From Rhodobacter sp. 24-YEA-8 (GTDB lineage Bacteria; Pseudomonadota; Alphaproteobacteria; Rhodobacterales; Rhodobacteraceae): DNA of 64,000 bases. The position numbers and the translations under genes were made by a program. The notes under the pieces were generated by a model that saw only the letters and a list, made by a program, of their open reading frames with translations, was not told the DNA's origin and did no database searches. Shown here in pieces: positions 20,190 to 44,911 of this stretch (position 1 is its first letter; the number at the start of each line of letters is the position of its first letter). The stretch spans positions 124,001-188,000 of the forward strand of contig NZ_FNSK01000006.1 in the NCBI RefSeq assembly GCF_900105075.1. The letters run 5' to 3'.

Positions 20190-22487
20190 TCATGAGAGCT
20201 GGTCGGTGCCACTGATTTCGGGCGGAGAAAACGCCTCAAGATGAGGCAATTCGCCCAGCCAGGGCTCTGCCCAGACCAGCGTTGTATGGGCCGTCGGCCC
20301 CTGGGCGAGACTGGAAGTCGGCAGATCACGCGTCAGCACATTGACATTGCCATGCCGGTCCAGCCCCTCGTGCGAGAGGTCAAGCCAGGCGCCGGTCGAC
20401 ATCTGGATCACACCATCCGCAATCGCATCCGAGATGACCAGCCCCGCCAGGCAGGCACCGCGCTCTGACCAGACCCGCACCACCTGACCCGATACGAGGC
20501 CGCGCCGCGCCGCCTCGGCCGGATTTATCCTGGCCGGTTCACGCTGACGGATCTTGGCCTCACGCGAATAACTGCCCAGGTCAAGCTGGCTGTGCAGCTT
20601 GCGGTCAGGCTGGTTCGAGATCAGATGCAGCGCATCGCCCCACCCGTTCTGCGGCGCATTGCCAAGCCATTCCCCCGGCTCGAACCAGGTGGCATGGCCA
20701 GGGCAATCCGCATATCCAAACCCTTCCACCCGCTCGGAAAAGATCTCAATGCGGCCCGAGGGCGTTGCCAGAGGATAGGCCAGTGGGTCTTCGCGGAAAG
20801 CCTGCAGCAATGCGCGCGGCGGCGTGGTGGCGGTAAAGGCAAATTCGCCATCCTGCCAGAAACGGTGAAACTCTGGCAGCGTATAGCCATTCTGCGCCGC
20901 CACCTCGCGGCTTTCATCGTAAAGCCGGTTCAGCCAGCCCATCTCATCCAGGCCACCGGTAAAATCCTCATTCATCCCCATGGCGGCGGCAATGCCCGCC
21001 AGAATGTCAAAGTCATTGCGGGACTGGGCAAAAGGCGCCACCACCTGCTTCATCGCGACAAGATGCGGCTCGCCTTTCGTGATGCCCAGATCATTGCGCT
21101 CCAGGGGCAGGGTGCAGGGCAGGACAATGTCGCCATGTTTGGCGATCGCGTTCCAGAACGGCTCCTGCACAATGACGCAGCGGGGGTTTTTCCAGACCCG
21201 GTGCAGCCTGCCCAGATCCTGCTGATGGTGGAAGGGATTGCCACCCGCCCACCAGATCAGCTCGATTTTCGGGTAGTGATAGCGGGCGCCATTATAGTCG
21301 AAGGCCGCGCCCGGCTGTTCCAGCATATCGCCCAGCCGGGCCACCGGGATAAAACTGCGGACCGGATTTTTCAGCTGAGGAAATGCAGGCCAGGCGAAAG
21401 GCAAAGAGATGTTTCCCACCCGGTTCGCCGCCGCATAGCCAGTGCCAAAACCGCCTCCGGGCAGGCCTATCTGGCCCAGCATCGCGGCCAGCGTCACGAT
21501 CATCCAGACCGGCTGCTCGCCGTGATCTGCGCGCTGCAAAGACCAGGCCATCGAGAGCATCGTGCGCTTCTGTGCCATCTCGCGCGCGAGACTGGTGATC
21601 ACCTCTGGCGCAAGACCAGTTATCGCCGCAGCCCAGGCGGGGGTTTTCGCGATCCCGTCGCTCTGACCCATCAGATAGGCCCGGAAGCGGTCATAGCCGG
21701 TGGTATAGCGGTCCAGAAAGGCATGGTCGGCGCGACCTTCGGCTTCCAGCACATGCGCCAGCGCCAGCATCAGCGCCACATCGGTATTCGGCCGCAGCGC
21801 CAGCCATTCCGGATCAAGCTCCGCAGGCGTGTCATCGCGCAGGGGGCTGACATTGACGAAACGGGTGCCAGCAGCGCGCGCGCGCTGCAGCTGATCGGGC
21901 ACCCTGTGCTGACTGACGCCCCCGGCGCTGACCTGGGCGTTCTTGACCGCGAGCCCGCCAAAGGCCACGAAAAGCTCGGTATGGCCGACGATCAGCTCCC
22001 ATGGCGTCTGGTTGTCGGCCATACCATCCTGATTGCCGATCAGATGCGGCAATACCACCTCGGCGGCGGCATGACTGTGTGTGTTGACAGAGCGGACATA
22101 GCCGCCGAGCAGGTTCAGGAAACGGTGAATCTGACTTTGCGCATGATGAAAGCGCCCTGCGCTGGCCCAACCATAAGACCCCCCAAAGATTGCCTCATTT
22201 CCATGTTCGGCAATGATCTCGCGCAGCTCTTTCGCGACGCGGGCATTGGCCTCATCCCAGCTGACCGCGACGAAACTGTCCTCACCGCGCTTTGCGCCGC
22301 CATCGCCCTCGAGAAACCCCTTGCGGATCATGGGTTGCGTGATCCGCATCGGACCGCTGACCGACCCCACGAAATTCTCGCTGATGCGCGAAGGTGAGGG
22401 ATCACCTTCTGCCGGCCTCATACCGGTGAGGCGGCCCTCTTCAACTATCGGACGGTCAATTCCCCAATGGTTCAGGGTGACAGACAT
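20190..22487 (-). CDS. Molybdopterin oxidoreductase of the DMSO reductase/biotin sulfoxide reductase group
   Basis: 765 residues, close to BisC/TorA-type length. There is no signal peptide and no N-terminal Cys cluster for an iron-sulfur centre, so it is cytoplasmic and bis-MGD only, as in biotin sulfoxide reductase BisC. GGSYGWASAGRFHHAQ places the probable Mo-ligand Ser at residue 109. Further cofactor motifs include IVGHTELFVAFGG, WWAGGNPFHHQQDLGRL and the C-terminal HLISNQPDRKLHSQLD. It probably reduces an S-oxide or N-oxide of the pathway substrate. It is divergent from a rhodanese gene, and the shared intergenic region has a tandem operator. Confidence 0.9.
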   Translation of the reverse strand: MSVTLNHWGIDRPIVEEGRLTGMRPAEGDPSPSRISENFVGSVSGPMRITQPMIRKGFLEGDGGAKRGEDSFVAVSWDEANARVAKELREIIAEHGNEAIFGGSYGWASAGRFHHAQSQIHRFLNLLGGYVRSVNTHSHAAAEVVLPHLIGNQDGMADNQTPWELIVGHTELFVAFGGLAVKNAQVSAGGVSQHRVPDQLQRARAAGTRFVNVSPLRDDTPAELDPEWLALRPNTDVALMLALAHVLEAEGRADHAFLDRYTTGYDRFRAYLMGQSDGIAKTPAWAAAITGLAPEVITSLAREMAQKRTMLSMAWSLQRADHGEQPVWMIVTLAAMLGQIGLPGGGFGTGYAAANRVGNISLPFAWPAFPQLKNPVRSFIPVARLGDMLEQPGAAFDYNGARYHYPKIELIWWAGGNPFHHQQDLGRLHRVWKNPRCVIVQEPFWNAIAKHGDIVLPCTLPLERNDLGITKGEPHLVAMKQVVAPFAQSRNDFDILAGIAAAMGMNEDFTGGLDEMGWLNRLYDESREVAAQNGYTLPEFHRFWQDGEFAFTATTPPRALLQAFREDPLAYPLATPSGRIEIFSERVEGFGYADCPGHATWFEPGEWLGNAPQNGWGDALHLISNQPDRKLHSQLDLGSYSREAKIRQREPARINPAEAARRGLVSGQVVRVWSERGACLAGLVISDAIADGVIQMSTGAWLDLSHEGLDRHGNVNVLTRDLPTSSLAQGPTAHTTLVWAEPWLGELPHLEAFSPPEISGTDQLS

Positions 22488-22597
22488 CGGTGCCGCTCCG
22501 CTTTTCTTTCACCTGGGCCTGCTGCCTGTCGAAACACCTTTCTGCCCGGCTGCGCAAGCGCGGACCTGAGGCCAGACGACAACGCACCGGCGACGGT

Positions 22598-22635
22598 GGT
22601 TCATTATTCAAAACGTCGTTCTATTTTTATTGCGG
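22598..22635. promoter_or_regulatory. IclR-type operator, site 1 (two tandem boxes)
   Basis: Box A is GGTTCATTATTCAAAAC (22598-22614). Box B, weaker, starts 19-20 bases later with CGTTCTATTTTTATTGCGG (22617-22635). Box A matches boxes at four other promoters in this window. The site is placed to control both the molybdoenzyme (leftward) and the rhodanese and IclR genes (rightward). Confidence 0.65.
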
Positions 22636-22734
22636 AATAATGCGGCCCAGGCTAGGCTTTTTTCAATCCGGCCGGCAACCGGCCACGAGATCCCGGCTTC
22701 GGCCTCTCCCCGTCTTTTACAGCAGGAATGCAGC

Positions 22735-23228: not shown

Positions 23229-23981
23229 ATGTCTGGTACCGTCGGCAAAGCCCTAACTCTGCTTGAACATCTGTCGCGCTACGATGCGCCGGTGCGGCTG
23301 GCGGAATTGTCCCGCTCTATCGAGATGAACAAAAGCACCACCTACCGGTTGCTCGAAACTCTCTCGCAGATGGGCTATGTCACCCAGGATGAGCCCAATG
23401 GCCGCTATCTGATGACGGTGAAGATGTGGGAAGTCGGTGTGCGGGCTTTTCAGCGCAGCGATATCCGCATCATGGCACGGCCGCATCTGCAGACGATCAC
23501 CGCAGCCGTGGATGAAACCGCATTGCTTGCACGCGCCGATGTCCAGGAAGTGATCATCATCGAAAAGGTGGATTGCGCGCAGCCTCTTCAGGCCATTGCG
23601 CCACTGGGAAGCCGGTCGCCGCTGCACGCCTCTTCCTTCGGCAAGGCGTTTCTGATGCAAGAGGAACCGCCGAAAGTCATGGAACTCGGTCCCGTGATGC
23701 AGCGCTTTACCGATCACACCATCACCGACCCGAAAGTGCTGCTGACGCAACTGGCCGAGATGCGGGCGGCTGGCTGTGCGATAGGCCGTGACGAATATCG
23801 CGACGGAATCTCAGGGGTCGCCGCACCGGTGATCGGCACCGATGGCAAAGCCTATGCGACCATCGGCGTCTCGATGCCCAGCTACAGGCTCAGCACAGAG
23901 AAACTGGCGGCGATTTCAGACGTGGTGCGCCGGGCTGCGATCAGCTTCTCGGCGCAGCTTGGTCATCAGCCACTGTCGTAA
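23229..23981 (+). CDS. IclR-family transcriptional regulator, probable master of the 20-45 kb regulon
   Basis: A 250-residue protein with an N-terminal winged helix-turn-helix (VRLAELSRSIEMNKSTTYRL, residues ~18-37) and a C-terminal IclR effector domain (SPLHASSFGKAFL; later GISGVAAPVIG). It lies 80 bases after the rhodanese and converges on the FadB-type gene, in the centre of the operons that share the tandem boxes. No strong ribosome site is visible at 23229. The effector is probably the substrate or a CoA ester intermediate. Confidence 0.92.
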   Translation: MSGTVGKALTLLEHLSRYDAPVRLAELSRSIEMNKSTTYRLLETLSQMGYVTQDEPNGRYLMTVKMWEVGVRAFQRSDIRIMARPHLQTITAAVDETALLARADVQEVIIIEKVDCAQPLQAIAPLGSRSPLHASSFGKAFLMQEEPPKVMELGPVMQRFTDHTITDPKVLLTQLAEMRAAGCAIGRDEYRDGISGVAAPVIGTDGKAYATIGVSMPSYRLSTEKLAAISDVVRRAAISFSAQLGHQPLS

Positions 23982-23995: not shown

Positions 23996-25927
23996 TCAGC
24001 GATAGCCGCGATGCCAGGCCGGGCCGCCCTTCCAGCGGGGCCAGCCAAAACCATGCACCCAGACCACATCAATGTCTGAGGGCCGCAGCGCAATCCCTTC
24101 GCCGATGATGGCGTCTACCTGTTCCAGCATCGGTTCCAGCAGGTGATCCAGCAGCGCCTCAGGCGCGGCATCGCGCAGTTTCTCAGGGTGGCGCGCCCGG
24201 AAAGCGTCAATCAGCGCCATGGCATCCGTCGAGGGCCTGCCCTGCCCTTTTTCATCATAGTCATAATAGCCAAGGCCGTTCTTCATGCCAAAGCGGCCCG
24301 CTTCGCAGAACACCTCCTCCATCGACCGCCCGGCGCTGCCGTCGCGATCCCAGCCGACATCAAGACCCGCGAGATCCGCCATCTGAAACGGCCCCATCGG
24401 CAGACCAAAGCCGGTCATTGCCCTGTCGATATCATAGGGAGAGGCACCCGCCAGCAAGAGTTCCATCGCGGCCGTCTGCCGTGCAAGCAGGATGCGGTTG
24501 CCGATGAAGCCGTGGCAGTTTCCGACGCACACGGTGATTTTCTGCATGCGCTGCCCCATATCGACCGCAGTCCTGATCACTTCGGGACTGGTCTTTGCGC
24601 CGCGCACCACTTCGAGCAGCCGCATCACATGGGCGGGACTGAAAAAATGCATCCCCAGCACCCGATCCGGGCGTCCGGTGGCAGCGGCCATCACGTCGAT
24701 ATCCAGAAATGAGGTATTGCTGGCCAGAATCGTCTGTGGCTTGCAGATCGCGTCAAGGCGGGCAAAGAGCGCGGTCTTGACGTCAAGGCGTTCAAAAACC
24801 GCCTCGATCACCAGATCAGCACCGGCCAGCGCCTCCGGCTCCGCATGCCCCGAAAGCCGCGACAGCGCCGCCGCACGCGCCGCTTCATCCATCTTGCCAC
24901 GCCGGACTGCGCCCGCAAGATTATCGGCCACCGCCTGCAGACCGCGCTGAAGCCCGGTGGCCAGGGAATCGCAGAGCAGCACATTAAATCCGGCAGTTGC
25001 CAGCACCGTGGCAATGCCGCTGCCCATCGTCCCGGCCCCCACCACACCCACCGTCGCGACCGGCATGCTTTGCGTTTCAGCCGGCAGGAAGGGCAGGTCT
25101 TTCAGGCGACGCTCGGCGGCAAAGACATGACGCAGCGCGCGTGACTGCTCACCCTGTTCTAGCCGGAAAAACGCCTCGCGCGCCTCTGGCCCCTGGTCGC
25201 GATCCGGCTCCTGCGCCGCCATCTCAACCAGCCGGAGGATCTCTTCGGGCGCGTCGCGCCCGGCAAGTTTCGCGGCATTCCTGCGCCGGTATTCCGCAAT
25301 TTTTCTCGCGGCATCCGGATCGGCCTTGGGTCCGGCCCGCACGGGAAGCGCCGCGGCCAGCGCCGTCGCCGCCTCGCGCAGATCTGATTCTGCGATCTGG
25401 TCGATCAGACCTGACTGCCGGGCCTCTTCTGCCCCGATGCGGCGCCCCGAAAGCACCAGATCCAGCGCGACTTCTACGCCCGCCAGCCGCGTCACCTGCG
25501 CGATACCGCCACCCGCGGGCAAAAGACCCAGCGTCACCTCGGGCAAGCCCATGCCGGCTGTGGGCACCGCCACCCGCGCACTTGCCGCCAGCGCCAGTTC
25601 AAACCCGCCGCCAAGCGCCGTGCCATGCATTGCAGCCACCACCGGCCGCGACAGCTGCGACAGGCGGGTGATCAGCGCGGGCAGATCCGGCATCGCGATC
25701 TCACCACTGAATTCCGTCATATCTGCGCCGGCGAAAAAGCTTTTCCCCTCGCAAAGCAGCACAGCGGCCCGCAGATCCTCGCGGCTTTCCAGGAGGTCAA
25801 ACCCCGCCATCAGCCCGCGCCGCACATCGGCAGAAAGCACGTTCACCGGCGGATTATCCGTGATGATCAGCAGGATGCCATCCCGGATCTCGGCATGGAC
25901 GCTGGCGGAAAGCGGGATCTTTTGCAT
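23996..25927 (-). CDS. Fused enoyl-CoA hydratase/3-hydroxyacyl-CoA dehydrogenase (FadB/FadJ-like)
   Basis: 643 residues. The N-terminal crotonase domain shows the oxyanion-hole segments FFAGADMTEF and AMHGTALGGGFELALA and a catalytic Glu region GLPEVTLGLLPAGGG. From about residue 290 a 3-hydroxyacyl-CoA dehydrogenase follows with VGVVGAGTMGSGIATVL, IEAVFERLDVK, ASNTSF and GMHFFSPAHVM. It is shorter than E. coli FadB but complete for both activities. It is followed upstream by the thiolase (16-base gap), making one beta-oxidation operon behind operator site 2. Confidence 0.93.
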   Translation of the reverse strand: MQKIPLSASVHAEIRDGILLIITDNPPVNVLSADVRRGLMAGFDLLESREDLRAAVLLCEGKSFFAGADMTEFSGEIAMPDLPALITRLSQLSRPVVAAMHGTALGGGFELALAASARVAVPTAGMGLPEVTLGLLPAGGGIAQVTRLAGVEVALDLVLSGRRIGAEEARQSGLIDQIAESDLREAATALAAALPVRAGPKADPDAARKIAEYRRRNAAKLAGRDAPEEILRLVEMAAQEPDRDQGPEAREAFFRLEQGEQSRALRHVFAAERRLKDLPFLPAETQSMPVATVGVVGAGTMGSGIATVLATAGFNVLLCDSLATGLQRGLQAVADNLAGAVRRGKMDEAARAAALSRLSGHAEPEALAGADLVIEAVFERLDVKTALFARLDAICKPQTILASNTSFLDIDVMAAATGRPDRVLGMHFFSPAHVMRLLEVVRGAKTSPEVIRTAVDMGQRMQKITVCVGNCHGFIGNRILLARQTAAMELLLAGASPYDIDRAMTGFGLPMGPFQMADLAGLDVGWDRDGSAGRSMEEVFCEAGRFGMKNGLGYYDYDEKGQGRPSTDAMALIDAFRARHPEKLRDAAPEALLDHLLEPMLEQVDAIIGEGIALRPSDIDVVWVHGFGWPRWKGGPAWHRGYR

Positions 25928-25942: not shown

Positions 25943-27166
25943 TCAGAAGATTTCAAAAAGCCCGGCCGCGCCCATGCCGCCACCGATGCACATGCTGACC
26001 ACGCCCCATTTTGCGCCGCGCCGCCGGCCCTCCAGCAGGATATGCCCGCTCATCCTTGCGCCCGACATGCCATAGGGATGGCCCATGGCGATAGCGCCGC
26101 CATTGACGTTCAGCCGGTCAAAAGGCAGCCCCAGCCGGTCGCCACAATAAACCGCCTGGGCGGCGAAGGCCTCATTGATCTCCCACAGATCAATATCCGC
26201 GACCGTAAGGCCAAAGCGTTTCAGCAGCGGCGGGATCGCAAAGACCGGGCCGATTCCCATCTCATCGGGTGCGCAGCCTGCGATTTCGATGCCGCGCAGC
26301 GTGCCAAGGGGTGTCAGCCCGCGCGCCGCCGCCTCGCTGCCCGACATCACTACAAGCGCGCTTGCGCCATCGGATACCTGGCTTGAATTGCCGGCTGTGA
26401 CAGAAACTCCCACCGCGATATGCTGCCCCGCCTTCAGGACCGGCGGCAGCGCGGAAAGGTCTTCGGCGCGGGTTTGCGGGCGATTGCATTCATCCTGCGA
26501 GAAGTGGACCTCGGCTAGCGTCTCCGCGCCACTCTCCCGGTCGGTCCGCTTTTGCAGGACGGTGAGCGGAGCGATTTCGGCGGTGAAATGGCCCGCTGCC
26601 TGGGCCGCCGCCATCTTCTGCTGCGAGGCCAGCGCAAAGACATCCTGCGCCTCGCGTGAAATCCCGTAACGCTGCGCGACGATCTCGGCCGTCTCGATCA
26701 TGCTCATGTAAAGCGCGGGGATGCGGGCGTTGAGGTCCGGGTCACGGGCGCGATGCAGGTTCATCTGCGGCGTCTGCACCAGCGAGCAGCTTTCGACCCC
26801 GCCGGCCACGACGATCCGCCGCCCCTCCAGCCGGATCTGCTGGCAGGCCAGCGACAAGGCCACCAGCCCGGACGAGCATTGCCGGTCAACCGCCATGCCC
26901 GGCACCGTCACCGGCAATCCGGCGGCCAGCGCGGCCTGGCGCCCGATATTGAAAGAGGTCGCGCCCTGTTGCAGCGCGCAGCCAAGGATCACATCCGCGA
27001 CCTCAGGCCCGATTGCCCCGGCCCCGCCTGCCCGCTCCAGTGCGGCCGTTATCGCATGGCCGGCCAGCCTTTGTGGCGAGGTATCGTTCAGGGCGCCGCG
27101 ATAAGCTTTGCCCACAGGAGTGCGGGCTGTGCTGACGATGACGGCTTCGGGCAAGGGCGCAGGCAT
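25943..27166 (-). CDS. Acetyl-CoA acyltransferase (thiolase)
   Basis: 407 residues with the complete thiolase triad: the acyl-enzyme Cys in [11 protein letters not shown] near residue 90, the His in [17 protein letters not shown], and the C-terminal Cys/Gly loop [13 protein letters not shown]. It splits a 3-ketoacyl-CoA to acetyl-CoA and a chain shortened by two carbons. It is first in the operon with the FadB-type fusion and divergent from a MaoC hydratase. Confidence 0.93.
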
Positions 27167-27231: not shown

Positions 27232-27270
27232 GTTCCACTATTTGAACCCCTGTTGCAATTTTTTTCGAAC
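27232..27270. promoter_or_regulatory. IclR-type operator, site 2 (two tandem boxes)
   Basis: Box A GTTCCACTATTTGAAC (27232-27247) is itself a dyad GTTC-N8-GAAC. Box B GTTGCAATTTTTTTCGAAC (27252-27270) starts exactly 20 bases later. The site lies between the divergent thiolase and MaoC genes and can serve both. Confidence 0.7.
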
Positions 27271-29017: not shown

Positions 29018-29024
29018 TGTGCAA

Positions 29025-30018: not shown

Positions 30019-30057
30019 GGTAGAAAATTTTACCAACATTGCCTCAATAAATAGAAC
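30019..30057. promoter_or_regulatory. IclR-type operator, site 3 (two tandem boxes)
   Basis: On the minus strand box A is GTTCTATTTATTGAGGC (30041-30057). Box B, GTTGGTAAAATTTTCTACC (30019-30037), starts exactly 20 bases further. Box A nearly repeats the second box of site 1. It stands upstream of the peptide-type binding-protein gene. Confidence 0.65.
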
Positions 30058-35634: not shown

Positions 35635-36113
35635 CAGCTGTCACCCTCTGTTCCGCTGACGCCTGCCGGCTGCATCAGCAAAAAGATGAGATGATCGCCC
35701 CGCACCACTTCGGTGCCATCCGTCTTGACGAGATAACCGCGCTCGGTCGCGAGGCCGCGTCCGGGCTTAGAAGTCTCGCGCCGGCTGATGAATTCAAGTT
35801 TCAGACAGACCTCTTCACCGGGGTAAAGCGGAGCGGAGAATTTTATATCGCTCCAGCCCAGCGATGCAGTGACAGAGCGGTCAAAACAGCCCAGCCCGGC
35901 CTTCAGCCCCTCGATCAGCGCGAGATTGAACAGGCCATGGGTGATACGGCCCGCGAACCCGGCCTCACGCGCAAAGGCGTCATTCATGTGAACCGGATGA
36001 TCCTCGCCTGTCAGCCGGGCATAATCATCAATATCCTGCACGGTGATCAGCCGCGACGCTGATTGCAGAACCGTGCCGGGGATAAAGGTCTCATACCAGA
36101 TCTGTTCGGTCAT
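35634..36113 (-). CDS. MaoC-family single hot-dog hydratase
   Basis: 159 residues from MTEQIWYE (36113), whose ATG overlaps the ligase stop (ATGA). The hydratase motif is the segment TGEDHPVHMNDAFAREAG (Asp and His near residues 37-42) followed by GRITHGLF. This is the (R)-specific enoyl-CoA hydratase fold. Coupled to the CoA ligase and importer genes, it probably acts early on the activated substrate. Confidence 0.88.
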   Translation of the reverse strand: MTEQIWYETFIPGTVLQSASRLITVQDIDDYARLTGEDHPVHMNDAFAREAGFAGRITHGLFNLALIEGLKAGLGCFDRSVTASLGWSDIKFSAPLYPGEEVCLKLEFISRRETSKPGRGLATERGYLVKTDGTEVVRGDHLIFLLMQPAGVSGTEGDS

Positions 36114-37843
36114 GTCTTTTTCCAGGCCTCGGTCCACAGGCTGCGCCAGTCGATCTTACGCGATCCCGAGCGCGGCAGAGCATCGCGGAACTCCACTTCC
36201 CTCGGCACTTTATAGGCCGCCATCAGCCCGCGCGCGAAGGTGATAATTTCATCGGCATCCACCTTGCCGCGATATTCGGGCTTCAGGGCGATCACGGCGC
36301 GAACCGTCTCGCCACTGCGGGCATGGGGGGCCGAAATCACCGAGACCTCATGCACCGCAGGATGCCGGTACAGCAGCATCTCACATTCCGCCGGCCAGAC
36401 CTTATAGCCCGAGACATTGATCATGCGCTTGATGCGGTCGACGATGAAGTAATAGCCCTCGGAATCGACATAGCCGAGATCACCGCTGCGCAACCAGGTC
36501 CTGCCGTTCAGCGCAACCAGCGTTTCAGCGCTGGCACCGGGCTGGTTCCAGTAGCCGAGCATGACCTGCGGCCCGGAGATCCACACCTCGCCCAACTCCC
36601 CCTGCGGCACTGGCAGCAGGGTTTCGGGGTCGACAATAATCGAATGGGTATTCTGTATCGGCAGCCCGAGGCACTGATCCTTTGGCGCATCCGGCGGGTT
36701 GATATGGGTGGCTGAGATGGTCTCGGTCAGGCCATAGCCCTCGCAAAAGCGCAGCCCCCATTTTCTGAACAGGCGCTCGGCCACCGCGGCCGGCATCGAG
36801 GCGCCCCCGCCAGTCAGCACCTGCAGCGAGGCGAAACAATCATCGGTGAAGTTCTCCGACCCCAGCACATCGACGATCATCGTCGGCGCTGCGGACCACC
36901 AGGTCACCTTATGGCGGCGCAGGAGGCCGGGCACCGCATCGGGGTTCCAGCGGGTCAGAAGCACAAGCGCCGCCCCGGCACAGATCGCCTCGGCCATCGA
37001 GGCGATCATGCCCGCCACATGAAACAGCGGCATGAAGCAGGTCATGACCGAGCTGTGATCGGTGCGATACCAGACCCGCTGTGCCTCGGCGACAAAACTG
37101 GCAGCGCTATGGCTGGTAAAGCAGGCCTTAGGCCGGCCGGTGGTGCCGGATGTATAGGGCAGGATCGCAAGCGTCTCGCCCCCGGGCGGCATTGGCGGCA
37201 GGCTGAGCCCCCGGCCCGCCCGGATTGCGGCCTCGAAATCGACCGAGATCGCAGGAACCTCGGCCGGTGCGGGGCGGAGCATCACGTCCGGCAGCGTATC
37301 AGATGTGTGCGGCACCCGGTCCAGATAGCGCAGGCGCAGAATCCGGTCGAGCGCACCCGCTCCGCTCAGAACGGCGAAACGCTCCAGCAATTCATCCGCC
37401 ACGATCGCCATACGGGCGCCGCTGTCGCTGACGATCCAACCCAGTTCTTCCGCTGTATTCATTGGGTTGACCGGCACAACCACACCGCCCGCCCGAAGCA
37501 CGGCATAGAATCCGATCACGAATTGCGGTGCATTTTGCAGGTCAAGAACAACACGGTCACCCGGGCGCAGCCCGTCGGCGACAAGCCAGGCTGCCAGCGC
37601 GCAGACATCCGCCTGCAATGCGTCATAGCGCAAAACGGTGCCGTAATAGTAAAGCGCCGGCCGCGCCGGCCAGGTCGTGGCGCTGCGCTCAAGCAAAGCG
37701 GCAAGATTCTCGCCGGTCACCGGAAGGTCAGCAGCAAGCCCGGCCGGCCAATGCGGCGATTGCAGCCCGGTCTGGAAGGCCAATGGCTCCGTACCCGGCG
37801 CAGCGGCAGGGGTATCGTCGCTGATTTCGGCCTTCGGCGTCAT
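36110..37843 (-). CDS. Acyl-CoA synthetase (AMP-forming), class I
   Basis: 577 residues. Adenylation motifs are in order: LPYTSGTTGRPKACFTSHS near residue 230, EGYGLTETISATHINPP, GDLGYVDSEGYYFIVDRIKR, NVSGYKVWPAECE, and the C-terminal catalytic Lys in PRSGSRKIDWR. It activates a carboxylic acid as a CoA ester. It is the first gene of an operon with a MaoC hydratase and four transporter genes, so import and activation are co-made behind operator site 4. Ribosome site AAGGACG lies upstream. Confidence 0.93.
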   Translation of the reverse strand: MTPKAEISDDTPAAAPGTEPLAFQTGLQSPHWPAGLAADLPVTGENLAALLERSATTWPARPALYYYGTVLRYDALQADVCALAAWLVADGLRPGDRVVLDLQNAPQFVIGFYAVLRAGGVVVPVNPMNTAEELGWIVSDSGARMAIVADELLERFAVLSGAGALDRILRLRYLDRVPHTSDTLPDVMLRPAPAEVPAISVDFEAAIRAGRGLSLPPMPPGGETLAILPYTSGTTGRPKACFTSHSAASFVAEAQRVWYRTDHSSVMTCFMPLFHVAGMIASMAEAICAGAALVLLTRWNPDAVPGLLRRHKVTWWSAAPTMIVDVLGSENFTDDCFASLQVLTGGGASMPAAVAERLFRKWGLRFCEGYGLTETISATHINPPDAPKDQCLGLPIQNTHSIIVDPETLLPVPQGELGEVWISGPQVMLGYWNQPGASAETLVALNGRTWLRSGDLGYVDSEGYYFIVDRIKRMINVSGYKVWPAECEMLLYRHPAVHEVSVISAPHARSGETVRAVIALKPEYRGKVDADEIITFARGLMAAYKVPREVEFRDALPRSGSRKIDWRSLWTEAWKKT

Positions 37844-37860: not shown

Positions 37861-37920
37861 GGGTCTGATATATGAAATCAGGTTCCTAATAATGAAACAA
37901 GCACCTGCTTCACGGGTCAA
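37861..37920 (-). promoter_or_regulatory. IclR-type operator, site 4 (two boxes) with -35
   Basis: On the minus strand box A GTTTCATTATTAGGAAC (37882-37898) is a clean dyad GTTTC-N7-GGAAC. Box B ATTTCATATATCAGACCC (37861-37878) starts exactly 20 bases later. A -35-like TTGACC lies at 37915-37920, so box A covers the expected -10 region, consistent with repression. Confidence 0.72.
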
Positions 37921-38000: not shown

Positions 38001-39188
38001 TCAGACCTGTCTCAGCATCCGTAACATCACCCGGATCGCCGCTTCGATATGTGCGGGGTCGCTCTCTTCTTCAGGGCAATGGCTGCGTCCGCCGACCGAG
38101 GGCACGAACAGCATCAGCGCGGGCACGATGCGCCCGATGATCCCGGCATCATGATTGGCGCCGGACAGCAGCTCGCAGGTCGCGATGCCTTCGGCTTTCG
38201 CGGCCGCAGACATCGCTGCGGCAAGGCCCGCATCCATTGGAACCGGCTGATCCGAATAGACCCGGCGGATCCGCAGATCGAGCTTTTCGTCAGTCGCGAC
38301 CGCTTCCGCCAATTGCTCAACCGCGCCGCGCAGGGCCAGCAATTGCCCACCATCCGGGCCGCGCAATTCAAGGCCCATGCGCACCTCCCCCGGCACCACA
38401 TTTCCCTGATTGGGTGCAACGCTGAAGACGCCGATGGTGCCGCGCAGATCCGGGTCGTTGGCGGCGCGGATCATCGCCCGGAACTCTGTCGCAAAACGCG
38501 CGGCTCCGGCCAGCGCATCACGGCGCAGATCCATAGGGGCCGTCCCGGCGTGATCGGCCTGGCCGGTGAATCGCAGCGCCAGCCGCTCCTGACCGGCAAT
38601 CGCGGTGACAAGCCCCAGCGGAATGCCTGCGGCTTCCAGCACCGGGCCCTGCTCGATATGCAGTTCCAGATAGGCCGCCACATCCGAAAAATCATAGGGC
38701 GCATTGGCCGGCCTGAACCCTGCCGCCTGCATCAGCGGCGCAAGATCCGTGCCATCGGCCGCGCGGGCGCGGGCAAGGGCCGCCTCATCATGCAGCCCTG
38801 CCATGGCACGGCTGCCGGTGAAAGGGCCGAACCGCCCTTCTTCGTCGCGAAAGGCGATAACCTCGATGGCGCGGCCCTGCCAGCCTTCGGCTTTCAGTTG
38901 TTTCAGAACCGAAAAGCCTGCAAGCACCCCGATGGCGCCGTCAAACGCGCCGCCCCGCTGCACCGAATCCAGATGCGATCCGATCAGGAATTTGGGGCCC
39001 CTGCCCTCAAGGCGCAAAATGGCATTGCCGAACGCGTCATAACGCGCGCCAAGGCCCGCCGCGCGCGCTTCGGCCAGCAGCCAGTCATGCGCCTGATTAT
39101 CTGCCGCGCTGAAGGCAAGCCGGGACCAGCCACCGTCAGGATCTGCCCCAAAGCCCTTCAGCCGCGCGAAATCCGACCGGAAGTCCAT
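38001..39188 (-). CDS. M20-family Zn amidohydrolase (N-carbamoyl-L-amino acid hydrolase/allantoate amidohydrolase-like)
   Basis: 395 residues with the full metal set: His in IGSHLDSVQRGG, Asp in GAFDGAIGV, Glu in AFRDEEGRFGP, His in LELHIEQGPV and the C-terminal His in GRSHCPEEES. SGANHDAGII is also typical. These enzymes split N-carbamoyl or ureido groups to amine, CO2 and ammonia. It follows the dihydropyrimidinase-like gene by 3 bases, the classical order of hydantoin utilisation. Last gene of its operon. Confidence 0.93.
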   Translation of the reverse strand: MDFRSDFARLKGFGADPDGGWSRLAFSAADNQAHDWLLAEARAAGLGARYDAFGNAILRLEGRGPKFLIGSHLDSVQRGGAFDGAIGVLAGFSVLKQLKAEGWQGRAIEVIAFRDEEGRFGPFTGSRAMAGLHDEAALARARAADGTDLAPLMQAAGFRPANAPYDFSDVAAYLELHIEQGPVLEAAGIPLGLVTAIAGQERLALRFTGQADHAGTAPMDLRRDALAGAARFATEFRAMIRAANDPDLRGTIGVFSVAPNQGNVVPGEVRMGLELRGPDGGQLLALRGAVEQLAEAVATDEKLDLRIRRVYSDQPVPMDAGLAAAMSAAAKAEGIATCELLSGANHDAGIIGRIVPALMLFVPSVGGRSHCPEEESDPAHIEAAIRVMLRMLRQV

Positions 39189-39191: not shown

Positions 39192-40580
39192 TCAACCCGG
39201 GCGGCGGGGCGAGGCCCGCATGACAAAACGTCCCTGCCCTTCGTGACCGAGGAAGACCCCATCCTCGACCACGAGCTTCCCCCGAAGGATTGTGGCGGTG
39301 GCAAATCCGGTCAGCTCCTGCCCGCTATAAGGGTTGTAGCCAATGTCGCCATAATCGCTGGCGGGCGTGATGGTGCGACGCGTCACCGGGTCGATCAGCA
39401 CCAGGTCGGCATCATAGCCCGGGGCGATAACACCCTTCTTTTCAAAGCCGAAAATCTGCGCCGGGAGGGTCGAGAACAGCTCGACAAACCGCATCAGCGA
39501 CAACCGGCCCTGATCGACGCCGCGGGTCCAGAGCACCGGCAGCCGGAACTCGATTCCGGTGGTGCCATTGGCGACGGTGGTGAAAGATGGCAGGCCTTTG
39601 CGCTTGGCCTCGGCGCTGTAGCTGACCTCATCCGAGGCCACGAGGCTGAGACCGCCCTGCGCAAGCCCCCGGAACAACGCATCCTGATTTGCCTGATCGC
39701 GCAGCGGCGGCGACAGGATGTAGTTATAGCCATCCTCGCGCTCCAGCGCCTCTTCGGTCAGCGCCAGATAATGCGTGCAGGTCTCGGCCGTGATCTTTAC
39801 CCCTTCGGCCCTGGCGCGCACGACCAGATCAATCGCCTCGGCGGCGACCAGATGCAGGATATGAACGCCGCAGCCGGTCGCGCGGGAGAAGGTGATGGCC
39901 CGCGAAACGGCTTCGATCTCGACGATCTTCGGCCGGGTCAGCGCGTGATAGCGCGGATGTTCATGGCCTGCCGCAACCGCCTCGGACCGCAGCCGTTCGA
40001 CAATATCGGCATTCTCCGCATGGAGGACGACCGAGAGGTCATTCTGCGCCGCCGCCTGCATCAGCGCATAAAGCGCGCCGTCAGTCAGCTTCAGCCCGTC
40101 TTCCTCGTAGACAGTATAGACCTTCAGCGTGGTGACCCCCGCCGCGCGCAGCGCGGGCAGTTCGGCAAGCGTCTGCGCATTCACATCGGTGACGATCACA
40201 TGCAGCCCGTAATCCACCGTCACATTGGCATCGGCCTGACCCCGGCGATGGTTCAGCCCCTTCAGGATCGAGCCGCCGCGCCGTTGCAGCGCGAAATCGA
40301 CCACCGCCGTGGTGCCGCCGCGCAAGGCCGCAATCCCGCCCGAGCCGAAATCATAGACCGAACGCACGCCCATGAATCCGACCATCAGATGCACATGCGG
40401 ATCGACCCCGCCCGGGATAACGATCCGGCCGGTCGCATCGATCACACTTGCATCCGGTGCAACAAGGCGTCCCTCCCCCTGCGGCAGCACAGCGCGAATG
40501 CTTTCGCCTTCGGTCAGCACATCGGCAAACTGCACGCCATTCGGGGTGACAACGCGGCCCCCGGTGATCAGGATCGACAT
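39192..40580 (-). CDS. Dihydropyrimidinase/hydantoinase-like cyclic amidohydrolase with altered active-site motif
   Basis: 462 residues. The metal HxH motif GGVDPHVHLMVG (near residue 58), a likely carboxylated Lys in TTLKVYTVYE, and His in VVLHAENAD and GVHILHLVAAEA are all present. The usual SDHCPF-type motif reads ASDEVSY, so the Asp is kept but the following His is gone, and relatives of known specificity may not predict the substrate. It should open a cyclic amide or urea ring. It overlaps the PLP enzyme gene by one base. Confidence 0.9.
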   Translation of the reverse strand: MSILITGGRVVTPNGVQFADVLTEGESIRAVLPQGEGRLVAPDASVIDATGRIVIPGGVDPHVHLMVGFMGVRSVYDFGSGGIAALRGGTTAVVDFALQRRGGSILKGLNHRRGQADANVTVDYGLHVIVTDVNAQTLAELPALRAAGVTTLKVYTVYEEDGLKLTDGALYALMQAAAQNDLSVVLHAENADIVERLRSEAVAAGHEHPRYHALTRPKIVEIEAVSRAITFSRATGCGVHILHLVAAEAIDLVVRARAEGVKITAETCTHYLALTEEALEREDGYNYILSPPLRDQANQDALFRGLAQGGLSLVASDEVSYSAEAKRKGLPSFTTVANGTTGIEFRLPVLWTRGVDQGRLSLMRFVELFSTLPAQIFGFEKKGVIAPGYDADLVLIDPVTRRTITPASDYGDIGYNPYSGQELTGFATATILRGKLVVEDGVFLGHEGQGRFVMRASPRRPG

Positions 40581-41761
40581 CAGCAGCCCTCCAGCGCCTG
40601 GGAAAGATCGGCGATCAGGTCTTCCGGATCCTCGATCCCGACAGAGATCCGCACCAGGCTTTCACTGATCCCCATGGCAAGGCGCTGCGCCTGCGGCACC
40701 GAGTAATGCGAGGTATTGCCAGGCTGGGAAATCAGGCTTTCCACACCGCCGAGCGAGGCCCCGATGCCAAAGAGCCGGGTGGCATCCACCACATGGCGGG
40801 CGGCATCCGGGCTCTGCGCCTCAAAGGACAATAGCGCGCCAAAGCCGTTCATCTGGCTGCGGGCGAGCGCGTGATCGGGATGGGAGGTGAGGCCAGGGTA
40901 ATGCACCTTTGCCACTTTGGGATGCGCGGCGAGAAATTCAGCCACTTTCTGGCCGCCGGCATTATGGGCTGCCATGCGCAAAGCATAGGTGGTCATGCCG
41001 CGCAGCAAAAGCCATGCGGCATGCGGGTCGACAATGGCGCCTGAAGCCTGCTGATTGCTGCGCAGCCTGCGCGTCAGATCCCGGCTGCCGCAAACCGCCC
41101 CCAGCAAGAGATCGCCATGCCCGTTGAGGTATTTCGAGGCGGAATGCACCACCAGCGCCGCCCCAAGATGCAAAGGCCGCTGGTTCATCGGCCCGCCCAG
41201 GGTGCCATCCACCACTACAGGAATGCCGCGCTGTGCCGCCAGCTCTGAGATCGCCCGCAGATCAACCACCCTGAGCAGCGGATTGGTCGGGGTCTCGACA
41301 TAGATCGCTTTCGTCCGCTCTGTCACTGCAGCCAGCACATCCGCCACCGCGCCCGAGGCCGCCCAGACCACATTGACGCCCTGGCGCGGCAGCACATCGC
41401 GGAAATAGCGGATGGTGCCGCCATAGATATCGGGCAATGCCACCAGCTCGTCGCCGGCTTCCAGCAATGGTGCCAGCGCCCCCGCAATCGCCGCCATGCC
41501 CGAGGCGTAAAGCACGCAGGACTGCGCCCCTTCCAGCGCCGCAACCCGCTGTTCCGCCGCCAGAACAGTGGGGTTGCGCACCCGGGAATAGACATAGCCG
41601 CGCTTTTCGCCGCTGTTGATCGCCATCAGCTCGGCGGTGTCTTTCGCGACAAAGGTGCCGGTCTGATAGACCGGCGGCGAAACCGCCCCCATTGCCTCCG
41701 CCGGGTCGTGACCGGCGTGAACCGCGATCGTGGCCAGGCGACGTGCGGGGGCTTTTGTCAT
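40580..41761 (-). CDS. PLP-dependent trans-sulfuration enzyme (cystathionine gamma-lyase/methionine gamma-lyase-like)
   Basis: 393 residues, full length for the Cys/Met metabolism family. Family marks are YSRVRNPTVLAAEQRVAALE near residue 57, ETPTNPLLRVVD, the PLP-binding Lys in HSASKYLNGHGDLLLG, and the late SLGGVESLISQPG. The usual VDNTF-type loop reads VDGTLGGP. It cleaves or forms C-S bonds next to an amino group. Placed between ring hydrolases and acyl-CoA enzymes it could open a thioether after an amine is exposed. Confidence 0.92.
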   Translation of the reverse strand: MTKAPARRLATIAVHAGHDPAEAMGAVSPPVYQTGTFVAKDTAELMAINSGEKRGYVYSRVRNPTVLAAEQRVAALEGAQSCVLYASGMAAIAGALAPLLEAGDELVALPDIYGGTIRYFRDVLPRQGVNVVWAASGAVADVLAAVTERTKAIYVETPTNPLLRVVDLRAISELAAQRGIPVVVDGTLGGPMNQRPLHLGAALVVHSASKYLNGHGDLLLGAVCGSRDLTRRLRSNQQASGAIVDPHAAWLLLRGMTTYALRMAAHNAGGQKVAEFLAAHPKVAKVHYPGLTSHPDHALARSQMNGFGALLSFEAQSPDAARHVVDATRLFGIGASLGGVESLISQPGNTSHYSVPQAQRLAMGISESLVRISVGIEDPEDLIADLSQALEGC

Positions 41762-42900
41762 TTCGTCAGCTCTTTCGCGATGATGATGCGCAGGATCTCG
41801 GACGTGCCGCCGCCGATTTCGGCCAGCTTCGAATCGCGGAAATGGCGCTGCATGTCGAATTCCATCAGATAGCCCCAGCCGCCCATCATCCGCATCCCGT
41901 TCAGCGCGGCGCGGACATACATCTCAGACGAGTAGAGATTGGCCATCGCGGATTCCTTGTTGTTCGGAATGCCGCGATCCACCAGGTTTGCAGAGCGATA
42001 GAGCAGCAGGCGCGCTGCCTCGATCTCCATATCCATATCGGCGAGCTTCGCCTTGGTCAGCTGGAAGCTGTTGATCTTCTGACCGAACTGCTTGCGCTCA
42101 TCGGTATATTGCAGGATTTTTTCCAGCACCGACTGCGCGGCACCGACATTGACGCCGGTCAGGCAGCAGCGCTCATAATCCAGCGTCTTCAGCGCGTTCA
42201 TCCAGCCGCCATTCACCTCGCCGATCACATTCTCTTTCGGGATGCGGCAGTCGGTCAGGAAGATCTCGTTCAGATCCATCGGCTTCAGGCCCAGCTTCTT
42301 CAGCCGCCGGATTTCCATGCCCTTGGTGCCGGTCGGCACCAGCAGCATGGTGATGCCTTTATGTTTCGGTGCCTCCGGGTCGGTCCGGGTCATCAGAAGG
42401 ATGTAATCCGCCACCTGGGCGGCAGAGCAGAACATTTTCTGCCCGTTGATCACCCATTCCTCACCGTCCAGCTCGGCCCGTGTCACCAGCGAGGCCGCGT
42501 CAGACCCCGAGCCCGGCTCGGAGAGCGAGAGCGCAAAACGGATCTCGCCGCGCGCCAGTTTCGGCAGCAGCTCTTTCTTCTGTTCTTCGGTCGCGAAATG
42601 CGTCAGCGCATCGGTCGCGATGACCACGGTTGTGTAGTAAAGATTGGCACCGGCCTCGAAATGGCGGGCGAATTCTTCCAGAAACACCACCAGATCGGTG
42701 CAGCTGCCACCCATGCCACCATATTCGACCGGGATCGGCAGCGAGAGCCAGCCCTCCGCCGCAAGCTTGTCGTAAAGCTCGGTCGGGAAGCGCTCGGCCT
42801 CGTCACATTCGCGCACATATTCAATCGGGCATTCACGCGTCAGGAAGCTGCGCAGATTGTCGCGCATCAGCCGCTGTTCTTCGCTAATCTCGAAATCCAT
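41758..42900 (-). CDS. Acyl-CoA dehydrogenase, isovaleryl-CoA-dehydrogenase-like catalytic layout
   Basis: 380 residues from MDFEISEE (42900); a longer in-frame start would overlap the hydratase gene. FAD motifs include FALSLSEPGSGSDAASLVTRA and MMGGWGYLMEF. The usual catalytic Glu of YEGTSEI is replaced (IGGGTSEI), but a Glu occurs in LDYERCCLTG, the position used by isovaleryl-CoA dehydrogenase. It should therefore be active and may prefer a branched or bulky acyl group. Start is 1-2 bases from the CaiD-like stop. Confidence 0.92.
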   Translation of the reverse strand: MDFEISEEQRLMRDNLRSFLTRECPIEYVRECDEAERFPTELYDKLAAEGWLSLPIPVEYGGMGGSCTDLVVFLEEFARHFEAGANLYYTTVVIATDALTHFATEEQKKELLPKLARGEIRFALSLSEPGSGSDAASLVTRAELDGEEWVINGQKMFCSAAQVADYILLMTRTDPEAPKHKGITMLLVPTGTKGMEIRRLKKLGLKPMDLNEIFLTDCRIPKENVIGEVNGGWMNALKTLDYERCCLTGVNVGAAQSVLEKILQYTDERKQFGQKINSFQLTKAKLADMDMEIEAARLLLYRSANLVDRGIPNNKESAMANLYSSEMYVRAALNGMRMMGGWGYLMEFDMQRHFRDSKLAEIGGGTSEILRIIIAKELTK

Positions 42901-42901: not shown

Positions 42902-43675
42902 TTACTTCCCCGTCCAGCGTGGTGCGCGTTTCTCTGCAAAGGCCCGCGGACCTTCTTTGTAATCTTCCGAGGCCCGGACGCGGTCACGCGCCGGCAGGCC
43001 AGAGTAAAGCTTTTCAAAAGCCTCGCGGTCCGAGAGGCCCTCGACCTCCCGCGTCACCTCGAGCAGCGCGGCAACCGCCAGTGGCGCGGCCGAGACGATC
43101 TGCGCAGCCAGCGCGCGGGCCTCATCCATCAGCGCCTCAGAAGTGGTGATCCGGTTCACGAAACCGTATTTATGCCCCTCTGCCGCCGTCAGACGCCGCC
43201 CGGTCAGCAAGAGTTCAGAGGCGATATTCACCGGCAGCCGGCGATGCGCGCGCCACAGCCCGCCCGCCTCGGGGATGAAACCGCGTTGCAGTTCGGGCAG
43301 GCCAAACTCGGTCTTTTCCGTGCAAAGGACCAGTGTCGCGGAAAGCGCGAATTCAAAGCCGCCACCGACCGCAAGCCCGTCAATCGCCGCGATCACCGGC
43401 TTGACCATGTCCTGGCGGTTCAGGCTCATGAACCCGTTCGGGCCGAAATCCTCGCCATCATCGCCCGCGGCGACCGCCTTCAGATCCCAGCCCGCCGAAA
43501 AAATCTTCCCCCCTGCCGCAGAAACGATCCCCACGCGCAGATCAGGGCTTTCATTCAACAGCGTCAGCGCCGCGTCGAAATCGCGGCTGGCCTGCTGGTC
43601 AAAGGCATTGGCGGGCGGGTGATCAAAGACGATCTCCAGCACCTGACCCCGGATTTCGGTTCTGATGCGGCTCAT
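42902..43675 (-). CDS. Enoyl-CoA hydratase, crotonobetainyl-CoA hydratase (CaiD)-like
   Basis: 257 residues of the crotonase superfamily. Oxyanion-hole segments FSAGWDLKAVAAG and GLAVGGGFEFALSA and the Glu-bearing FGLPELQRGFIPEAGG closely follow E. coli CaiD, as does the ending FAEKRAPRW. No CaiB-type CoA transferase is nearby, so a carnitine role is doubtful. It more likely hydrates a bulky or charged enoyl-CoA of this pathway. Coupled to both acyl-CoA dehydrogenases. Confidence 0.92.
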   Translation of the reverse strand: MSRIRTEIRGQVLEIVFDHPPANAFDQQASRDFDAALTLLNESPDLRVGIVSAAGGKIFSAGWDLKAVAAGDDGEDFGPNGFMSLNRQDMVKPVIAAIDGLAVGGGFEFALSATLVLCTEKTEFGLPELQRGFIPEAGGLWRAHRRLPVNIASELLLTGRRLTAAEGHKYGFVNRITTSEALMDEARALAAQIVSAAPLAVAALLEVTREVEGLSDREAFEKLYSGLPARDRVRASEDYKEGPRAFAEKRAPRWTGK

Positions 43676-44835
43676 GCCGGGAACTCCCGCAGCACGTCTT
43701 TCGAGATGATGTCGCGATGGATCTCAGAAGTTCCCTCCCAGATCCGCTCGACGCGGACATCGCGCCACATCCGCTCAATCGGCCATTCTTTTGAGACGCC
43801 CATGCCGCCCAGCATCTGCAGCGCGTTATCGGTCACGCGCCCCGCCATTTCCGAGCCGTAGAGGTTGACGATCGAGGCCTCCCGCTGGGTGATCAGCCCA
43901 TCCTCCATCCTCGCGGCGCCGTTCAGCACCAGAAGGCGGGTCGCCTCGATCTCCATCGCCATATCGGCCAGCTTGAACGAGGTGCCCTGGAACTGGCCGA
44001 TGGTCTTGCCAAAAGCGCGGCGCGTATTGGCATATTGCGCGGCGATGCCCATGGCGCGCTCGGCAAGGCCCACCATATTGGCCGAGAGCATCACCCGGCC
44101 CGAAAAGATCCAGCTTTTCGCAATGGCAAATCCGCCGCCCTCTTCGCCGATGATATTGGCGGCCGGCACGCGGACATCCTCCAGCGCGATAGAGCAGGAT
44201 TTGAAACCCCGGTTGCCGACCAGCTCCAGCGGGCTGACACTCACGCCAGGCAGGCATTTGTCGACGAGGAAGCAGGTGATCCGCTTTTGCGGCCCTTTCG
44301 GAGTGTCATCGACGCCGGTAACGGCGAAAAGGATGATGAAATCGGCCACCATCGCCATGGTGATGAAAATCTTTTCACCATTGATGATGTAATCATCGCC
44401 GTCGCGCACCGCCCTGGTTGCGATCTGGCGCGCGTCAGAACCCGCGCCTGGTTCGGTCAGGCCAAAGCATTCCCAGCGTTCGCCGCGGATCACCGGTTTC
44501 AGATAGGTCTCGATCTGATCACCGGTGCAGGCTTTCAGGATCGGCGCCGGGCGGTTGCAGATGATGTTAAGCGCCCTTGTGGTCCGCCCGAACTCAATCT
44601 CCGCCACCGCGCGCAGCCGCTGCCCAAGGCCGCCACCGCCCAGCTCTTCGGGCATGTTCAGCGCGTAATATCCGGCATCTATTGCCTTCTTTTTCAGCTC
44701 GCGGAACAGATCTTCCGGGACCTTATCGGCCTTTTCGATCAGATCCTCATGGGGCATCAGCTCTTTTTCGACAAAGGCACGCACACCCTGGGCCACCATA
44801 CGCTGATCTTCGCTGTAGGCTGCATAGCTCATCAT
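43672..44835 (-). CDS. Acyl-CoA dehydrogenase (first gene of operon)
   Basis: About 387 residues from 44835 or 44832; a longer in-frame start at 44901 would overlap the operator boxes. FAD motifs are CFGLTEPGAGSDARQIATRA and MLGGMGVSKEW, and the catalytic Glu is present in RIWEGTSEIHRD near the end. It oxidises an acyl-CoA to the enoyl-CoA. Having two dehydrogenases with different catalytic-Glu layouts in one operon suggests two substrates, perhaps successive chain lengths. Confidence 0.92.
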   Translation of the reverse strand: MMSYAAYSEDQRMVAQGVRAFVEKELMPHEDLIEKADKVPEDLFRELKKKAIDAGYYALNMPEELGGGGLGQRLRAVAEIEFGRTTRALNIICNRPAPILKACTGDQIETYLKPVIRGERWECFGLTEPGAGSDARQIATRAVRDGDDYIINGEKIFITMAMVADFIILFAVTGVDDTPKGPQKRITCFLVDKCLPGVSVSPLELVGNRGFKSCSIALEDVRVPAANIIGEEGGGFAIAKSWIFSGRVMLSANMVGLAERAMGIAAQYANTRRAFGKTIGQFQGTSFKLADMAMEIEATRLLVLNGAARMEDGLITQREASIVNLYGSEMAGRVTDNALQMLGGMGVSKEWPIERMWRDVRVERIWEGTSEIHRDIISKDVLREFPA

Positions 44836-44864
44836 TGAAACCCGTGTTGCCGATCCGAATGATC

Positions 44865-44911
44865 GTTTCATTATTTGGCATGACGTTTTATTAATTCGCA
44901 AAACTTGTCAA
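44865..44911 (-). promoter_or_regulatory. IclR-type operator, site 5 (two tandem boxes) with -35
   Basis: Boxes GTTTCATTATTTGGCA (44865-44880) and GTTTTATTAATTCGCAAAAC (44885-44904) start exactly 20 bases apart on the plus strand. On the minus strand TTGACA lies at 44906-44911 with a possible -10 TAAAAC at 44885-44890, so the boxes cover the promoter core of the dehydrogenase operon. Confidence 0.72.

Follow-up and report, generated by a model that had tools for sequence, protein, structure and literature searches.

Chemical descriptions of bacterial biotin breakdown date back decades. In the classical Pseudomonas work the side chain is shortened by beta-oxidation to bisnorbiotin and tetranorbiotin, and uracil is a product in the classical reports. 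To our knowledge no gene set has been assigned to this catabolism, and a search of the open-access literature, with subscription papers mostly outside its scope, found none. One paper with 'catabolism of biotin' in its abstract was set aside because its accessible text concerns biosynthesis (PMC2880306), and a review of biotin production describes, in the part available, a Pseudomonas producer as free of a degradation pathway (PMC11089781). Here we analyse about 20 co-regulated genes of Rhodobacter sp. 24-YEA-8, at positions 20190-44911 of a 64-kb stretch of DNA (hereafter the window), most of which are retained in four other bacteria. We propose that their five operons form one IclR-controlled regulon for the catabolism of biotin, together with biotin sulfoxide and norbiotins, a choice of substrate for which we consider the case evenly balanced.

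The closest described systems each share part of this locus. The classical Pseudomonas breakdown of biotin has CoA activation, beta-oxidation and sulfoxides as side forms in common with it, but no gene set was found for that pathway, and the ring steps proposed below appear new. Hydantoin utilisation similarly relies on an adjacent hydantoinase and M20-family carbamoylase, here both over their family cut-offs, whereas in the window the pair lies in one gene run with a CoA ligase, two acyl-CoA dehydrogenases (ACADs) and a predicted C-S lyase. The ErtD/ErtE hydantoin-5-propionate branch of ergothioneine breakdown also applies a hydantoinase and a carbamoylase to a sulfur-bearing compound, and needs no CoA ligase; however, the window's proteins score far below the cut-offs of its models (240.3 against 650 and 203.6 against 600 for ErtD; 340.8 against 520 for ErtE). 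Finally, deoxyribonate catabolism has genes for a short-chain dehydrogenase/reductase (SDR) and a beta-keto acid cleavage enzyme (BKACE) in one operon (PMC6365646), an arrangement that is accompanied here by a CoA ligase and hydratases.

A conserved catabolic gene set in five genomes

Scans with domain and family models located every enzyme type that a first-pass annotation of this DNA had named (Table 1). The genes for the S/N-oxide reductase (minus strand) and the rhodanese (plus strand) are divergently oriented, and the longest minus-strand run reads, in order, ACAD2, enoyl-CoA hydratase (ECH), ACAD1, a pyridoxal 5'-phosphate (PLP) enzyme, hydantoinase, M20 amidase, CoA ligase, MaoC1, OppB, OppC, OppD and OppF.

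Four other genomes carry most of the set, at 37-87% identity: Mesorhizobium zhangyense (G672; isolate CGMCC 1.15528), two genomes (G923 and G703) found in a sample of 297 genomes from the M. zhangyense family, and a betaproteobacterial metagenome-assembled genome (G673). It occupies a single locus in each of the first three and is split over two contigs in G673. The M. zhangyense locus (L038) encodes, at 56-87% identity, the binding protein, BKACE, SDR, S-oxide reductase, MaoC2, IclR regulator, rhodanese, ACAD2, ECH, ACAD1, PLP enzyme, hydantoinase, M20 protein, CoA ligase, MaoC1 and OppBCDF; the G923 and G703 loci have the same core at 44-80%. One G673 contig carries ACAD2-ECH-ACAD1-PLP enzyme-hydantoinase and ends inside the hydantoinase gene, and the other carries, at 37-64%, the rhodanese, BKACE, SDR, IclR regulator, MaoC2, binding protein, MaoC1 and CoA ligase; orthologous OppBCDF genes were not seen in the G673 loci. 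The genes for the PLP enzyme, hydantoinase and M20 protein are adjacent in all four loci seen whole (window, G672, G923 and G703), as a series from hydantoin through N-carbamoyl compound and amino acid to C-S lyase needs. Conserved neighbourhoods without the ring-opening and sulfur genes would have refuted the first-pass annotation; these loci keep those genes, so it is not refuted on this point. The gene set is a real, conserved, co-regulated catabolic unit, more than a product of chance.

The PLP enzyme belongs to a sharply delimited orthologue group, as judged by a gap in identity. The 120 best relatives listed, from at least 8000 candidates scored, fall into three sets: 92 align over 94-100% of the query with 60-98% identity, three are fragments (62-75%), and the remaining 25 do not exceed 52%. 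The group was present in three of the 297 family-sample genomes (M. zhangyense included) and in none of 291 other genomes in an order sample, where the best other match scored 327.5 bits against 851 for the protein itself and identity was at most 46% among the matches listed. It was likewise missing from 384 others in a class sample and from sets of 396 and 299 others (E <= 1e-115). The group is rare in genome samples outside the carriers of the set; the samples overlap in part, and the number of carriers is a lower bound from which no true frequency can be derived. A plasmid collection held no relative at 60% identity or more of either the hydantoinase (0/1032 matching records) or the PLP enzyme (0/1374).

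Five putative operators point to one IclR regulon

The operons are preceded by a 16-base near-palindrome of the type GTTCCACTATTTGAAC. We scored it with a symmetric matrix counted solely on sites from three other alphaproteobacterial genomes (G672, G923 and G703), in which seven of 11 promoter regions scored over 8; the seed palindrome had been picked by eye after inspection of promoters in the window and in the other genomes, which means that the search did not begin blind. The five best places for this matrix in the whole window are the five promoters of the set. In 50 controls in which the 64 kb were shuffled base by base, top scores averaged 13.0 with a maximum of 17.5; only the best site therefore stands out by score, and the strength of the result lies in the coincidence of the five top matches with five promoters. 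The five operons of the first-pass annotation are thereby supported by a common operator-like sequence, and a single IclR regulon, with these as putative operators, is well supported. Since one site lies at the thiolase-FadB promoter, those two genes probably belong to the regulon here, though they are missing from the loci elsewhere. A genome-wide search gave ten matches, against three in a reversed control. Besides the window's best site, eight of the matches are inside open frames and one (L144) is just beyond a frame end; no additional regulon members are named from this search, but greedy open frames can be false, and there may be others.

Active sites suit a hydantoin-to-thiol sequence

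The hydantoinase exceeds the cut-off of TIGR02033 and is below those of the other models shown. Its HxH pair, Lys, two His and Asp, which we take to be the binuclear metal ligands (the Lys carboxylated), align with 4kqn and are kept in 4/4 aligned proteins, as is a change of the 4kqn loop SDHCPF to SDEVSYS. The M20 protein exceeds the cut-off of TIGR01879 and is below those of the narrower models shown; what we assume to be the M20 metal motifs align with the N-carbamoyl-L-amino acid hydrolase 3n5f and are again kept in 4/4 aligned proteins.

The hydantoinase model TIGR02033 describes dihydropyrimidinases, and beta-alanine synthases are among the relatives of the M20 protein, so the set might degrade a pyrimidine- or hydantoin-like acid with little or no sulfur, with the rhodanese, PLP lyase and S-oxide reductase serving general sulfur handling. 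We consider this improbable: the PLP enzyme forms a close-knit group of orthologues, and its gene lies in the operon between those of a dehydrogenase and the hydantoinase, a rhodanese orthologue accompanies the set in 5/5 genomes, and the dihydropyrimidine dehydrogenase domain of reductive pyrimidine catabolism was not found among the cluster genes scanned, the rest of the genome lying outside that search. The same M20 and PLP enzymes, together with the Dpp/Opp-type importer, could be read instead as breakdown of a peptide or of a beta-lactam or thiazolidine, in which a sulfur-containing, peptide-like compound is imported, the M20 protein acts as an amidase and the CoA ligase takes an acyl side chain. 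That is very improbable, given an M20 protein that scores over a hydantoinase/carbamoylase cut-off and is encoded beside a hydantoinase with a complete metal site, and given that no peptidase or beta-lactamase other than M20 was recognised among the cluster genes scanned.

The PLP enzyme shares PF01053 with the cystathionine and methionine gamma-lyases, and the places of the catalytic Lys, Asp and Tyr and of the alpha-carboxylate Arg are invariant in 92/92 group members. It nevertheless scores under the cut-off of all NCBIfam models shown (25 of 52), including the gamma-lyase equivalog TIGR01328 (400.7 against 549.7), and its pocket differs. Residue numbers here follow motifs on what we take to be the correct correspondence, and the role of Arg119 is likewise presumed. 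Human cystathionine gamma-lyase holds the cysteinyl moiety of cystathionine through Glu59 and Glu339 (PMC6073527). The group keeps the Glu339 place and has lost Glu59, which is Val in 91 members and Ile in one; it has gained Arg at position 62 (92/92, where 23 of 25 outsiders have Gln), and at the Arg119 place 59 members have Arg, 27 Lys and 2 His, so that it is basic in at least 88/92. The comparison took in 92 proteins within the group and 25 outside it, the latter only the next 25 listed, with three partial proteins dropped. The loss of Glu59, the gain of Arg62 and the basic Arg119 place suit a substrate whose far end is a carboxylate without an amino group, of the type of S-carboxymethylcysteine. 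Taken in order, the operon's predicted activities suit a sequence from hydantoin to N-carbamoyl amino acid, to amino acid, to thiol plus keto acid. A literature search (three of four terms) found no paper linking S-carboxymethylcysteine with a lyase, thioglycolate and hydantoin.

Dehydrogenases, BKACE and sulfur enzymes

ACAD1 is without the usual C-terminal Glu (it reads GGGT) and has a Glu in LDYER instead, at the place used by long-chain acyl-CoA dehydrogenase (LCAD) and isovaleryl-CoA dehydrogenase (IVD), a match based on alignment with 5ol2 and on what we take to be the IVD sequence. ACAD2 retains WEGT and the usual Glu position, and both patterns hold in 5/5 genomes; the ACAD2 start is probably 44835 or 44832, not 44901. 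Human LCAD and IVD have the catalytic base at the alternative position, and the LCAD cavity accepts substrates that are bulky or branched (PMC10925408, a preprint). BKACE enzymes transfer the acetyl group of a free beta-keto acid to acetyl-CoA (PMC6365646), with substrates that differ by group (PMC4922564); as a guess, the window's BKACE could salvage free beta-keto norbiotins.

The S-oxide reductase has molybdopterin S/N-oxide reductase domains and no Tat (twin-arginine translocation) leader on reading of its N terminus, and is predicted to be cytoplasmic. It is 42% identical to Escherichia coli BisC, 40% to TorZ and 39% to TorA, and scores 900.3 bits with TIGR00509, below the BisC-family cut-off of 1017.55. 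The label 'BisC-type' given to it earlier therefore stands as a cytoplasmic S/N-oxide reductase, and BisC by orthology is rejected. Three of the four alphaproteobacterial loci encode such a reductase (window, M. zhangyense and G703): M. zhangyense has a local copy at 70-71% and a second copy at 46% elsewhere, and the G703 gene, a 43% relative, lies beside OppF. The rhodanese, we would guess, may serve disposal of sulfur from mercaptoacetate.

Elsewhere in G923 (L162, G923:C4:1248000-1262000), genes for a second rhodanese, 61% identical to the window's, and for a 46% S-oxide reductase lie side by side. Their neighbours encode an IF-2B-type (MtnA-like) protein, an amidohydrolase, a class II aldolase, an FGGY kinase, a thiamine diphosphate enzyme and a family III CoA transferase. 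The arrangement suggests a further locus for sulfur salvage in which the same rhodanese/S-oxide reductase pair is used.

A tentative route through the bicyclic ring

Hydantoinases cleave cyclic imides, and the biotin ring is an imidazolidin-2-one, a plain cyclic urea. Direct opening of that ring by the cyclic amidohydrolase and N-carbamoyl hydrolase, as first proposed for this locus, was rejected on these chemical grounds. Lacking an imide in biotin, the pair should not act first; it fits a hydantoin made after oxidation of the ring. We suggest, tentatively and with more doubt than attaches to biotin as the substrate, that the regulon dismantles biotin including its bicyclic ring, by a third, intra-ring beta-oxidation, an L-cysteine hydantoin and a dedicated S-carboxymethyl-L-cysteine lyase.

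Gene families, their conservation, an operator-like sequence common to the promoters and active-site residues are what we observe; the substrate, the order and every reaction in the following proposal are inferred. Import by the Opp-type transporter would be followed by reduction of any sulfoxide by the molybdoenzyme and by activation by the CoA ligase. Two rounds of beta-oxidation would yield tetranorbiotinyl-CoA, with its carboxyl on the sulfur ring, so that the alpha carbon would be the ring carbon beside sulfur and the beta carbon would carry a urea nitrogen. ACAD1 could then desaturate the ring C-C bond next to the thioester, and a hydratase could add water at the nitrogen-bearing carbon to give a carbinolamide, which would collapse to a ketone with the urea ring opened. 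A precedent for the hydratase step is DmdD of dimethylsulfoniopropionate breakdown, a crotonase whose hydration of a beta-heteroatom enoyl-CoA expels the heteroatom. Thiolysis of the ring C-C bond would produce an N-carbamoyl-S-carboxymethyl-L-cysteinyl thioester able to close to a hydantoin, from which the hydantoinase, M20 carbamoylase and PLP lyase would release pyruvate, ammonia, CO2 and mercaptoacetate. Carbon C6a of biotin, the future alpha carbon, has what we take to be the L-cysteine configuration, which both L-carbamoylases and lyases of the Cys/Met family require. Uracil as an intermediate was set aside, as the PLP lyase would then be left with no evident substrate.

Bisnorbiotin and biotin sulfoxide occur as metabolites in human urine (PMC9106636), so such a mixture is found in nature; tetranorbiotin and its sulfoxide are also named as known metabolites (PMC10670868). 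The literature listings available gave no link to biotin for M. zhangyense and two other carriers of the set.

Because the hydantoinase-carbamoylase-lyase logic needs no biotin, the regulon might instead degrade another sulfur-containing carboxylic acid, for example a synthetic or plant thioether hydantoin, to an S-substituted cysteine hydantoin or N-carbamoyl cysteine and end as in the biotin route. We know of no Opp-type importer for biotin, and two of the loci (G923 and G703) add a hydantoinase/oxoprolinase A and B type pair. Against this, no other common natural compound known to us combines a thioether with both a cyclic ureide and a fatty acid chain; the presence of two dehydrogenases, three to four hydratase domains and a CoA ligase suggests an alkyl acid; and the chirality matches biotin. 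We therefore rate another thioether acid as rather unlikely, though it deserves to be kept in view.

Several observations weigh against biotin as the substrate. FadB and thiolase, which the first-pass annotation counted towards a full beta-oxidation set, are present here but local to this genome and outside the conserved core: neither was found in 60-kb stretches of G672, G923 and G703. The M20 gene was not seen in the G673 loci, where a frame with a CobW_C domain stands directly above the CoA ligase at the contig end (L161:10887-11429). The molybdoenzyme appears to be no clear BisC orthologue; it is missing from the G923 locus, the 46% copy of that genome lying elsewhere beside the second rhodanese, and it had no match at E <= 1e-80 in G673. 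The BKACE step would be superfluous if a thiolase works, leaving BKACE with no firm role, and the rhodanese and mercaptoacetate disposal are unexplained. Nor does the uracil of the classical reports follow from the proposed route. No BioY or biotinidase was among the locus proteins scanned, although no search was aimed at them. BioB is over its cut-off in the window's genome but not in G672, G923 or G703, whose completeness was not given; a pathway that destroys biotin would thus be present in organisms that may be biotin auxotrophs. Biotin is also scarce in nature, at 140-356 pmol/l in human serum (PMC9106636).

Biotin, as first proposed for this locus, is still the best-fitting substrate, with changes to the ring chemistry, the BisC label, the place of FadB and thiolase in the core, and biocytin import; nothing ties the peptide-type importer to biocytin.

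Features of the locus and neighbouring genes

Table 1. Genes and putative operators of the set, with positions in the window
Feature	Position	Strand	Support
Cytoplasmic molybdopterin S/N-oxide reductase, BisC/TorA superfamily	20190..22487	-	PF00384, PF01568, PF18364
Putative IclR operator between S-oxide reductase and rhodanese genes	22598..22613		rank 2, 16.6 bits
Single-domain rhodanese, CASGWRS loop	22735..23148	+	PF00581
IclR-family regulator	23229..23981	+	PF01614, PF09339; orthologues 37-62%
FadB-like enoyl-CoA hydratase / 3-hydroxyacyl-CoA dehydrogenase	23996..25927	-	domain and family models
3-Ketoacyl-CoA thiolase	25943..27166	-	TIGR01930 410.2 bits > cut-off 240.55
Putative IclR operator GTTCCACTATTTGAAC, between divergent thiolase-FadB and MaoC2-SDR-BKACE operons	27232..27247		rank 1, 19.5 bits
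MaoC2, MaoC/hydratase-2 type enoyl-CoA hydratase	27308..28165	+	PF01575, PF22622; 40-56% in other genomes
SDR dehydrogenase, candidate 3-hydroxyacyl dehydrogenase	28235..29017	+	55-78% in other genomes
BKACE	29019..29972	+	PF05853; NF053538 506.2 bits > cut-off 430; 64-87% elsewhere
Putative IclR operator before solute-binding protein gene	30042..30057		rank 5, 12.5 bits
Family 5 (Opp/Dpp) solute-binding protein	30152..31747	+	PF00496; 50-79% in other genomes
OppF, OppD, OppC, OppB of peptide-type ABC importer	31816..35634	-	domain and family scans
MaoC1, MaoC-type hydratase	35634..36137	-	PF01575; 64-73% in other genomes
Acyl-CoA ligase, proposed biotinyl-CoA ligase	36110..37843	-	PF00501; 52-63% in other genomes
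Putative IclR operator before CoA ligase	37883..37898		rank 3, 14.9 bits
M20 hydantoinase/carbamoylase-family amidase, proposed N-carbamoyl-L-amino acid hydrolase	38001..39188	-	TIGR01879 343.9 bits > cut-off 204
Hydantoinase/dihydropyrimidinase	39192..40580	-	TIGR02033 431.8 bits > cut-off 393.25; metal ligands aligned with 4kqn
PLP enzyme, predicted C-S lyase, Cys/Met family, group-specific pocket	40580..41761	-	PF01053
ACAD1	41758..42900	-	catalytic Glu in LCAD/IVD position; start probably 42900
ECH (crotonase)	42902..43675	-	PF00378
ACAD2	43672..44835	-	PF00441; catalytic Glu in usual position of medium-chain acyl-CoA dehydrogenase (MCAD)
Putative IclR operator before ACAD2	44865..44880		rank 4, 14.0 bits

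Two stretches adjoin the set in the window. Positions 12279-19568 hold an ordinary-looking catabolic operon with two neighbouring enolase-superfamily (MR/MLE) genes, two SDR genes, an FAH-type hydrolase and an ABC importer with a family 3 binding protein; positions 45520-50066 encode an Fe-alcohol dehydrogenase, an aldehyde dehydrogenase, an AmiR/ANTAR-type regulator and a Peripla_BP_5 binding protein.

Open-frame lists for the other loci are greedy, and some of the following frames may be wrong. Between the binding protein and MaoC2, both G923 and G703 have a hydantoinase/oxoprolinase A-type frame (L131:5564-7801; L133:17913-19577), the A gene being Pfam-checked in G923 and a B gene in the same interval Pfam-checked in G703. 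Behind the G923 core operon, a frame that resembles a second IclR-type regulator, by reading only (L132:1197-2105), is followed by a 445-amino-acid crotonase-like protein and a class III aminotransferase that trail the operon (L132:2214-4840), with similar frames in G703.

Implications

If biotin is the substrate, the regulon would account for degradation of the ring of a vitamin in use throughout the living world, would give genes to a process for which none were found in the literature, and would supply markers for following the loss of biotin in soil, in sewage and in the sea. A new lyase and a ring-opening reaction would also become available for study. Should the substrate prove to be a different thioether ureide, the locus would still represent a conserved, regulated pathway, each enzyme of which can be assayed.

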